This document shows positions 3,985-38,341 of a stretch of DNA of 60,454 nt, piece by piece. A model generated the notes under the pieces. The model searched no databases. It had not been told where the DNA came from and was given only the letters and a program-made list of their open reading frames with translations. The translations under genes and the position numbers were made by a program. Positions within the stretch are counted from its first letter, which is position 1, and every line of letters starts with the position of its first letter. The stretch comes from an uncultured Erysipelotrichaceae bacterium (GTDB lineage: Bacteria > Bacillota_I > Bacilli_A > RF39 > UBA660), in NCBI GenBank assembly GCA_902801685.1, contig CADCIZ010000002.1, positions 1-60,454 on the forward strand. The letters are read 5' to 3'.

Positions 3985-4488
3985 ATGAAAGAACAATTAA
4001 TGTTAGTCAGACTAGATACAAAGTATTGTGATTATTTAAGAACGTGTGATGATAAAGTACCTTATAATCATAATGAAAAAGAATTAAGACCATTTGTCGG
4101 CGTTTTATTTAGAATAAATAAATTAATGTATTTTGCCCCTTTATCAAGTCCTAAACCAAAACATTTGAAATTAAAATCTAAATTGGATTTTCTAAAAATA
4201 GATAATGGTAAATTAGGCGCAATTAATTTTAATAATATGTTGCCTGTTACTAAGAAGAATATAATAAAACTAAATTTAGATAAAGAATGCTTAACTAAAT
4301 CAGAAGAAAAGTATTCTAAACTATTAAAAGAACAAATATATTGGTTAAATCGTAATGATGAAAAGTTATATGGAAGATCTAAAAAACTGTATAATAAATA
4401 TATTAATGGCACATTAGATAAAAACATTGCTAAAAGATGTTGCAATTTTAAATTATTAGAAGGGAAATGTAAAGAATACAATGCATAA
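3985..4488 (+). CDS. toxN: ToxN/AbiQ-family endoribonuclease toxin
   Basis: 167 aa, typical for the family (~165-170). The N-terminus LDTKYCDYLRTCDDKVPYN matches the ToxN opening (Y.D.L...D.KVPN). The active-site region YFAPLSSPKPKH carries Ser54-Ser55 at the position of the T/S-S pair needed in ToxN, and the C-terminal CNFKLLEGKCKEY matches the family end (CNF.LLE.KY). ToxN enzymes are sequence-selective RNases that arrest growth and can abort phage infection; they are held in check by ToxI RNA. The GGAAGTG ribosome binding site lies after the antitoxin terminator. The locus is bounded by two similar terminator-like sequences, consistent with an acquired cassette. Confidence 0.9.
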   Translation: MKEQLMLVRLDTKYCDYLRTCDDKVPYNHNEKELRPFVGVLFRINKLMYFAPLSSPKPKHLKLKSKLDFLKIDNGKLGAINFNNMLPVTKKNIIKLNLDKECLTKSEEKYSKLLKEQIYWLNRNDEKLYGRSKKLYNKYINGTLDKNIAKRCCNFKLLEGKCKEYNA

Positions 4489-5792: not shown

Positions 5793-6740
5793 ATGAAAAA
5801 TGAAATTGTGTTATTTAAAAATCAACATGTAAAATTAGAAGTTAATATGAAAGATGAAACTGTATGGTTAAATGCAGAACAAATGTCGTTATTATTTGAT
5901 AGAGACTATAAAACAATTAGAAAGCACATTAACAATGCGTTACAAGAAGAATTAGATAGTTCAACTGTCGCAAAATTTGCGACAGTTCAAAAAGAAGGAA
6001 ATAGGGAAGTTACACGTAACATTGAATACTATAATCTCGATGTGATTATAAGCGTTGGTTATCGTGTAAAATCCAAAAATGGTATTATATTTAGAAAATG
6101 GGCAAATAAAATCTTGAAAGATTATTTAATTAAAGGATATGCAGTTAATGAAAAAAGGCTTAAATATCTTGAAAAGACTATCAAATTAATTGATATTGCT
6201 GGTAGAATTGATACTGAATTAAAAGGAAGTGAAGCGCAGGAGATAATTAAAGTTATAAATAATTATTCAAATGCTTTAAACTTACTTGATGATTATGATC
6301 ACAAAAGGATTGTTAAGCCAAACGGAACTAAAAATAATAATAAAATAACTTATGAAGATTGTATGGATGTAATTAGTAAACTTAAGTTTAATAGTGATAG
6401 TAATTTATTTGCACTAGAGCGAAATGAAGGTTTGAAATCTATTATAGGTGCGATATATCAATCATATGATGGAGTTGATTTATATCCAACAATCGAAGAA
6501 AAAGCAGCAAACTTTTTATACCTAATAACTAAGAATCATACATTTATTGATGGTAATAAAAGAATAGCAGCAACACTATTTATATATTTTCTTGGAATAA
6601 ATAATATTTTATATAATAAAAACGAACAGATTATTGATAATAATACACTTGTTGCAGTTACACTGTTAATCGCACAATCTAATCCTAAAGAAAAGGATAT
6701 ATTAATAGATTTAGTTATGAATTTTTTAAATAGAAATTAG
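5793..6740 (+). CDS. RhuM family protein fused to a Fic/Doc domain
   Basis: 315 aa. The N-terminal part (~1-115) is the RhuM domain: VWLNAEQMSLLFDRDYKTIRKHI, which looks like a DNA-binding helix-turn-helix as in phage antirepressors, then YYNLDVIISVGYRVKSKNG and WANKILKDYLIKGYA. A linker is followed by a Doc-type Fic domain with HTFIDGNKR (249-257), matching the HxFx(D/E)GNKR motif of AMP/phosphate-transferring Fic enzymes. Doc-like domains act as toxins or modify host factors, and RhuM proteins are typical of mobile elements. A perfect 25-bp palindrome is embedded at codons 57-65. The paralogue at 37269-38290 lacks the Fic part. Confidence 0.82.
   Translation: MKNEIVLFKNQHVKLEVNMKDETVWLNAEQMSLLFDRDYKTIRKHINNALQEELDSSTVAKFATVQKEGNREVTRNIEYYNLDVIISVGYRVKSKNGIIFRKWANKILKDYLIKGYAVNEKRLKYLEKTIKLIDIAGRIDTELKGSEAQEIIKVINNYSNALNLLDDYDHKRIVKPNGTKNNNKITYEDCMDVISKLKFNSDSNLFALERNEGLKSIIGAIYQSYDGVDLYPTIEEKAANFLYLITKNHTFIDGNKRIAATLFIYFLGINNILYNKNEQIIDNNTLVAVTLLIAQSNPKEKDILIDLVMNFLNRN
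5963..5987. repeat. Perfect 25-bp palindrome inside rhuM-fic
   Basis: Arms AACTGTCGCAAA and TTTGCGACAGTT around one central base. It runs from the third base of codon 57 to the end of codon 65 and encodes T-V-A-K-F-A-T-V. The same codon span in the other rhuM (38066-38090) is also a 25-bp palindrome but of different sequence. Confidence 0.9.
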
Positions 6741-37268: not shown

Positions 37269-38290
37269 TCACTCCTTATCACAACATACTTTTTCTGTTT
37301 CATAAACTAATTTATCAAAGTCAGATATATAATTTCTATCTTGAATAACTGCATACTTATCATATTCACCCTCAGCTTTTTTCATAGCTTTATCATGGCT
37401 TATTTTTCCTTTACCTTTTAGTACATCATACATGTTAATTTTAAATACTTCTTCTAAAGATGTTACCCAATCATAATCGCCATTGGTATATGACGAGTTG
37501 CTCTATTTTCAGCAATATCAAGATAGATATTAACTAAATCATTTAGTTCTTTTAACTCTTTTTCATCCAAATAATTTTTAGCAATTCTAACATCACTTTT
37601 TAAAATTTTACCATTAGGGGAATTTTTCCAATTAGTAAGACCTAAATGTTCCTTAGTAGAATCAACTCTATCATATATTATTTCTGCAGCAGTTTGATGG
37701 GATATTGCATAATGAAATTTATTTTGAATTGTCTTATAAAACGTTTTAGCAGTCTCACTATCTTTAATATAATCAATACTACATTCAGCAAATATATCAG
37801 TAATTTTTTGATAAAACATTCTTTCACTAACTCTAATTAGTTTTATTCTTTCAAGTAATTCATCAAAATATTTTTGATCATTTCTATTTGCTTTCATGAA
37901 TCTTTCGTCATTAAGAATAAATCCTTTTTTAATATACTCTTTTAATATCCTATTTGCCCAAGTTCTAAATTTGATTGCTTTTTTTGAATTAACTCTAAAA
38001 CCTATTGAAATAATCATATCAAGATTATAATATTTGGTTTTATAAGTTTGTAATCCATCATTACCCACATGTTCCATTTTGGAACATGTGCCTATTTCTT
38101 TTAATTCATCATCCCTATAAATATTGTTTATATGCTTCACTATTGCAGGCCTTTGTACATCAAAAAGTTCTGCAATTGCATTTGTATTTAACCATACATC
38201 TTCATCATTTAAAAGCACTTCAATTTTTAAATTATCATTATCATCTTCATAAAATATGATATCATTTTTCTTTTTAATAATATTCTCCAT
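37269..38290 (-). pseudogene. rhuM gene with a frameshift near its 3' end
   Basis: The first ~275 codons give a RhuM protein: WLNTNAIAELFDVQRPAIVKHI, YYNLDMIISIGFRVNSKKAI, WANRILKEYIKKGF, then AENRATRHIPM. After HIPMAIM the frame runs into TAA at about 37463. A shift of one base restores the family C-terminus (DWVTSLEEVFKIN, GKGKISHDKAMKKAEGEYDKY) up to TGA at 37271-37269. One missing base near 37473 explains it; a sequencing or assembly error is also possible. ATG 38290 follows AGGAGAC. No Fic domain, unlike the 5793 gene. Confidence 0.75.
38066..38090. repeat. Perfect 25-bp palindrome inside the second rhuM
   Basis: Arms CACATGTTCCA and TGGAACATGTG around TTT. It begins at the third base of a codon and covers eight further codons (T-C-S-K-M-E-H-V on the minus strand): the same span, register and central Lys as the palindrome at 5963-5987, with unrelated arms. 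Confidence 0.9.
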
Positions 38291-38341
38291 AAAGTCTCCT
38301 GAAATATTCATATTAAGAAAAATCTATAGATTGCTATAGAT

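Follow-up and report, generated by a model that had tools for sequence, protein, structure and literature searches.

The window (the whole 60,454-nt stretch of DNA analysed here) contains two genes of the RhuM family, rhuM-A and rhuM-B, each with a palindrome inside its coding sequence. The genes and the features discussed below are as follows.

5793..6740, plus strand: rhuM-B, a fusion of an RhuM N-terminal domain and a Fic domain (PF13310 and PF02661; PADLOC PDC-S23)
5901..5924, plus strand: rhuM-B codons 37-44, RDYKTIRK, recognition-helix residues by alignment with rhuM-A
5963..5987, no strand: rhuM-B palindrome, AACTGTCGCA-AAATT-TGCGACAGTT, core half-site GTCGCA
37463..38311, minus strand: rhuM-A, RhuM family (PF13310, E 1.2e-85; PADLOC candidate defence model PDC-S05)
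38066..38090, no strand: rhuM-A palindrome, listed as CACATGTTCCA-TTT-TGGAACATGTG; on the coding strand CACATGTTCC-AAAAT-GGAACATGTG, core half-site TGTTCC; putative dimer site of the gene's own product
38135..38158, minus strand: rhuM-A codons 52-59, VQRPAIVK, the turn of the helix-turn-helix (HTH) and the start of the recognition helix, which co-vary with the palindrome core (mutual information and sister-pair tests, AlphaFold2)

Both genes pass the curated cut-off of the Pfam family PF13310 (Virulence_RhuM), with 287.2 and 96.2 bits for rhuM-A and rhuM-B against a threshold of 33.7. Both also match candidate defence models of PADLOC (rhuM-A, 3.8e-113 to PDC-S05; rhuM-B, 3.7e-124 to PDC-S23), for which there are no assay data on phage protection. 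They are single genes of a chromosomal contig with ordinary neighbours (MutL, VanY and SpoIVB). The C terminus of rhuM-A is split over two frames (37335-37475 and 37463-38089, minus strand; profile positions 2-207 and 204-249), and the placement of the profile parts in different frames suggests a frameshifted gene in which the self-site is intact. A gene for a ToxN-family toxin (PF13958, type III toxin-antitoxin) lies at 3985-4488, two genes upstream of rhuM-B.

Read by codon on the coding (minus) strand, the rhuM-A palindrome is C ACA TGT TCC AAA ATG GAA CAT GTG (peptide GTCSKMEHV); that of rhuM-B, on its own coding strand, is A ACT GTC GCA AAA TTT GCG ACA GTT (peptide STVAKFATV). Each starts at a third codon base and ends eight codons on, with its centre at the third position of one and the same aligned Lys codon; every third codon base therefore faces another third base, and every first base faces a second base. 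Within the window, each arm of the two palindromes is present once on each strand, and the 11-bp arms have no further copy in the 60,454 nt; dinucleotide shuffles gave 0.02 and 0.00. The preliminary description had claimed a palindrome in rhuM-A and a counterpart in the other rhuM gene at the same codons and in the same register, with unrelated arm sequences; both were confirmed.

Symmetry of the palindrome across rhuM genes

We gathered rhuM genes by protein similarity, without regard to palindromes, and drew on viral contigs, GTDB genomes and genomes of the source organism's own phylum; a viral scan with the rhuM-B protein as the query yielded no relatives. Across 256 unique genes, the fraction of paired positions was 0.90-0.94 at distances d = 3-7 and d = 10-12 from the centre and 0.76-0.79 at d = 8-9, and was at background beyond d = 13. 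After dereplication at 85%, the best palindrome lay at the Lys register, which is that of rhuM-A, in 207 of 231 genes; counting all three reading-frame registers in which the site occurs, 221 of the 231 genes reached 8 or more paired positions out of 10. The two shifted registers, +8 nt (9 genes) and -1 nt (5 genes), place the site in other reading frames that encode unrelated peptides, such as KFGNSEF from AAA TTC GGA AAT TCC GAA TTT at +8 nt, and the layout of core, 5 bp and core is unchanged in all three. The peptide adapts to the palindrome, and not the palindrome to the peptide. The family namesake, Salmonella rhuM (STM3755 homologue), carries AGTTGTTCGG-TTTTA-CCGAACAACT, with 10 of 10 positions paired.

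About 4% of the rhuM genes have no clear site in the usual registers, among them L161-L164, L120 and gp8 of Wolbachia phage WO (L563). In L161-L164, the symmetry has been lost in such a way that the left half still matches the helix and the right half does not. Two other open reading frames, L178 and L206, encode two tandem RhuM N-terminal domains, with a palindrome and a matching helix for each.

Symmetry of this kind could be a by-product of protein constraint, if the amino acids at this position merely happened to be encoded by complementary codons. To separate the two, we used a synonymous null in which the protein was held fixed and codons were redrawn from each gene's own usage (214 genes). 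The peptide accounts in part for pairing at first and second codon bases, for which the null reached 0.75-0.98 at d = 4, 5, 7, 10 and 11. At third bases (d = 3, 6, 9 and 12), however, the observed pairing was 0.96, 1.00, 0.83 and 1.00 against 0.42, 0.33, 0.30 and 0.31 in the null (z 16-23), which cannot arise from the peptide; position d = 12 was paired in 214 of 214 genes, by four different pair types. The site is also found in other frames with unrelated peptides and, as described below, in unrelated families. Protein constraint as the source of the symmetry is all but excluded.

Alternatively, the palindrome might be an mRNA hairpin, its stem being preserved in the transcript for translation control or RNA decay. 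In favour of this explanation, the arms are able to pair in RNA, and complementarity is kept while the sequence changes. A transcript stem would tolerate G.U but not A.C, whereas the mismatches at d = 3-12 comprised 34 G.T and 29 A.C in rhuM, 9 and 14 in ORF6N, 46 and 47 in DinD, and 14 and 11 in BRO-like genes (about 103 and 101 for the four families pooled), indicating selection on double-stranded DNA. Also against a hairpin, the core-to-core spacing is constant at 5 bp even after a shift to another reading frame, and the core is predictable from the recognition helix of the protein (see below), which a bare hairpin does not require. We consider this explanation very unlikely.

Together, the 256-gene pairing profile and the synonymous null demonstrate compensatory change on both arms of the rhuM palindrome, as the preliminary description had claimed from two genes. 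It would have been refuted by a large RhuM alignment in which the region is mostly asymmetric; with palindromes in 221 of 231 genes this was not the case, and the two cases are no coincidence. The RNA hairpin that it had offered as an alternative is disfavoured by the mismatch counts and the fixed spacing.

The half-site and the recognition helix

When rhuM genes were grouped by core, their HTH sequences sorted as well: DKSTISRHI occurred with GTTGCA, DRSVITKHL with TGTGCA, SKSNISEHIKH with GTTCGG, SRTNVVEHI with TGTCGG, TKQNVSLH with GTCAAG, VPAISKHL with ATTTCC or GTTTCC, and TDNISLH with ACCGAG. Outside the columns that encode the site itself, mutual information between alignment column and core peaked only at residues 52-56, 58 and 59 (rhuM-A numbering), where the summed excess was 1.6-3.8 bits; other non-site columns did not exceed 1.3 bits and were mostly below 0.6. 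The partial Spearman correlation between core and helix was 0.575 when background was held fixed, compared with 0.02 between core and background when helix was held fixed. In a set of 106 disjoint sister pairs, a change at residue 59 was seen in 46 of the 64 pairs with different cores and in 3 of the 42 with the same core (p = 9e-12); the corresponding counts were 46/64 and 6/42 for residue 54, and 40/64 and 4/42 for residue 55. Individual residues went with particular bases: Lys54 with GT (85/96) and Arg54 with TG (33/38); Asp55 with GA (16/16), Pro55 with TC (21/25) and Gln55 with AA (21/24); and Glu59 with CGG (42/46) and Arg59 with GCA (57/66).

The helix residues predicted the 6-bp core at 0.82-0.90 per base overall. 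With donors that differed elsewhere by at least 35% or at least 45%, nearest-helix prediction still reached 0.87 and 0.82 per base, and the exact 6-mer was recovered at 0.49 and 0.41. With such distant donors, column sets of equal size gave 0.44-0.59 when they came from elsewhere in this helix, from the first HTH helix or from the region past the site, and 0.43 when picked at random. Control column sets as a whole gave 0.42-0.73 per base with close relatives as donors and 0.42-0.59 without them. Cores in the shifted registers were predicted from the main class at 4 or more of 6 positions in 12 of 14 cases, nine of these at 5 or more.

An AlphaFold2 model (49-sequence alignment; mean pLDDT 75, and 92-97 in this region) has the HTH as helices 43-50 and 54-66 and the palindrome-encoded residues 76-82 as the strand that follows it. 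The helix at 54-66, taken with the mutual information, sister-pair and prediction signals, identifies the readers as the turn and the first residues of the recognition helix. A sequence search of the PDB gave no match, and the best matches of a fold search, to DdrC of Deinococcus (E 6e-3, TM about 0.25-0.3), were not decisive.

These data show that the half-site sequence co-varies with residues 52-59 of the encoded protein's own HTH. Because the letters of the palindrome change together with the helix by which the same protein reads DNA, the protein apparently recognizes its own gene. The preliminary description had proposed that the site serves self-recognition and diverges along with the protein; the comparison with the recognition helix was strongly positive in all three tests (mutual information, sister pairs and core prediction) and supports that proposal, for which there are no binding data.

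We also asked where else the sites occur, by scanning one 1.31-Mb genome by pattern for six of its rhuM palindromes, those of rhuM-A and rhuM-B included, as full sites and not as half-sites alone. For all six, the only exact match was in the palindrome's own gene. The remaining near-matches had at least two mismatches and were broadly as numerous as with a reversed-pattern control, although two of the six, among them that of rhuM-B, showed a modest excess of near-matches with 2-3 mismatches. The flanks of 213 rhuM genes contained no excess of second sites, with matches at 11 or more of 12 positions in 2 genes (0.9%) compared with 3.1% for control cores. The lack of a second copy, in these flanks and in the genome for the six sites, argues against a conventional promoter operator, which we rejected. 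In L263, positions 2927-2943 form a perfect site of the ATTCGA type; it lies immediately upstream of a rhuM gene and equals the core of a neighbouring rhuM about 1.6 kb away, and the two genes might form a cross-regulating pair.

The ten rhuM genes of the source genome have ten different half-sites. Same-genome paralogues showed no over-dispersion of cores in a permutation test of low power (9 identical-core pairs seen, 6.4 expected), and a comparison of 10-bp half-sites, likewise of low power, gave 1 identical pair where 1.5 were expected. As co-resident paralogues are not over-dispersed, trans-exclusion or insulation lacks direct support; paralogue insulation, the other part of the earlier proposal, was thus tested and not demonstrated.

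ORF6N, BRO-like and DinD genes

Palindromes at a single register were present in 46 of 52 dereplicated ORF6N genes (for example, TTGAAGTCGC-AAATT-GCGACTTCAA) and in 48 of 52 dereplicated genes of a BRO-like family (AACTGTCGAC-ATTTT-GTCGACAGTT). In DinD, 44 of 69 dereplicated genes had one at the main register; these are even-centred (CATTTTGTTG-AAGT-CAACAAAATG) and less perfect than those of the other families. In all three families, the palindrome lies at the strand after the HTH and exceeds the synonymous null. The dinD gene of E. coli K-12 carries CATTTCGAGG-AGAT-CCTCGATATG, which has 9 of 10 positions paired and is the top palindrome of the gene. The helix-core code of ORF6N associates NQQV with CA, NEQV with CG, NRQV with GC and NKAV with TC, as well as KRN with C and KNN with A. 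The palindrome has recurred independently in ORF6N, BRO-like and DinD genes, with helix-core codes of their own, and is likely to be a self-site there too; no binding data are available. Extension to all Bro-N proteins was rejected: the palindromes of high-scoring phage-type Bro-N genes (L295-L301) were only at shuffle level, and the intragenic palindrome is therefore not universal. As a separate observation, the C termini of several ORF6N proteins (L356-L385) share an FHDRFLIID...YHIGAS motif reminiscent of phospholipase-D-like nucleases, another effector-like fusion.

Of 4687 E. coli genomes with a match to dinD, 1533 matched at least 80% of the K-12 gene, and many others matched only nt 247-825. 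In eight alleles of the latter kind, the first 240 nt, which contain the HTH and the site, were 55-72% identical to K-12 and the rest 90-100%. E. coli has at least two dinD alleles (K-12 dinD at L325 5761-6585; others in L566-L573 and L576), which differ almost only in this stretch of about 240 nt; reader and site have been swapped together in the manner of a cassette. In E. coli TUM13936, two dinD genes stand in tandem (L577, 1029-1853 and 2207-3031), with the same recognition-helix start and nearly identical palindromes.

Proposed function and known systems

We suggest, as the likely reading, that RhuM binds as a dimer to the palindrome of its own gene, in double-stranded DNA, and that the site serves negative autoregulation without a promoter requirement. 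Self-recognition is strongly supported by sequence; physical binding, roadblock repression and biological benefit are inferred, in the absence of binding or expression data. In this model, the N-terminal winged HTH would read both half-sites through residues 52-59, the site consisting of 6-bp variable cores, a 5-bp spacer and semi-conserved outer bases. Since the site lies about 60 bp downstream of the reader codons, specificity and target are inherited together; as the searches turned up no further copy, the protein seems to have its own gene as its main or sole target. When the protein builds up, a dimer sitting some 200 bp inside the gene would block transcription of that gene and of any identical incoming copy, a roadblock step for which known intragenic repressor sites provide the basis. 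Self-contained feedback that needs no particular promoter would suit genes that arrive in varied contexts.

Two rivals that assume the same binding but another purpose are possible and are not excluded. In the first, the protein is a DNA-anchored effector that stays bound to the gene encoding it, the only site certain to be present, and is released or over-produced upon DNA damage or degradation (phage attack, SOS). Effector-like C termini are indeed fused to these proteins (Fic in rhuM-B), the PDC-S05 and PDC-S23 matches point to candidate defence functions, and E. coli dinD is DNA-damage-inducible by name and annotation. However, there is no direct evidence for release or toxicity, and the annotations are candidates only; we regard this rival as unlikely. 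In the second, the palindrome is an origin or centromere, a cis-acting site for replication, partition or mobility, at which the protein would act in initiation or partition. Some relatives are located in satellite phages and plasmids, and intragenic origins have precedents. Against it, rhuM-A and rhuM-B are single genes among ordinary genes of a chromosomal contig, and there is one site only, without an iteron array and without second copies in the flanks of 213 genes; we regard this explanation, too, as improbable.

A bolder extension of the autoregulatory reading, which we offer only as a possibility, is that the coding sequences of a whole superfamily of mobile DNA-binding proteins (RhuM/ORF6N/BRO-like/DinD) serve these proteins as private addresses that co-evolve with them. 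Each allele would thereby sense whether its own gene is present, in how many copies, or whether it is intact, and would couple this to an effector domain. If true, this would amount to a gene-identity sensor in allelic exclusion or anti-phage defence, more than ordinary autorepression.

For four large families of unknown function, one of them represented in E. coli K-12, a DNA target can now be predicted directly from their own genes, and their function becomes directly testable through it. The genes also hold a natural protein-DNA recognition code over hundreds of specificities, a training set for HTH specificity. Their coding sequence is under dual selection, for a peptide and for that peptide's own (predicted) binding site, and the site can change frame while its geometry stays fixed.

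In the openly licensed literature that we searched, we found no description of an intragenic palindrome, or of self-binding or autoregulation, in RhuM, ORF6N, BRO or DinD. This is consistent with the initial statement that none was known for RhuM proteins, and a prior description is not excluded. What appears to be new, as far as that literature goes, is a single self-site in the codons of the DNA-binding domain that co-evolves with the helix across four families; what it resembles is already known, namely, initiator genes within which the origin lies, and operators placed inside genes. By Pfam, rhuM-A and rhuM-B belong to the RhuM family PF13310, whose Salmonella member carries the same kind of palindrome. 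Acr-associated (Aca) and antitoxin autoregulators (PMC9410906, PMC3920265) are small HTH proteins as well, encoded on mobile elements, which recognize inverted repeats and regulate their own expression, but the repeats are located in promoter regions ahead of the operon, whereas the rhuM-type site lies within the coding sequence of the regulator. Intragenic operators, such as those of galE and lacZ, are also regulator sites within coding sequence that are able to block transcription. They lie in the regulated enzyme genes, beside promoter operators; the self-site, in contrast, stands alone, within the codons for the DNA-binding domain itself, and in hundreds of genes it evolves together with the reading helix. 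In lambda O with ori-lambda, phiX174 gene A, pT181 repC and B. subtilis spo0J with parS, a gene holds the target of its own protein and specificity can co-diverge. The targets in those initiator and partition genes are origins or centromeres, usually with iterons or strand-nicking, whereas the rhuM-type site consists of one dyad and occurs in orphan genes, chromosomal and mobile, whose C-terminal domains vary.
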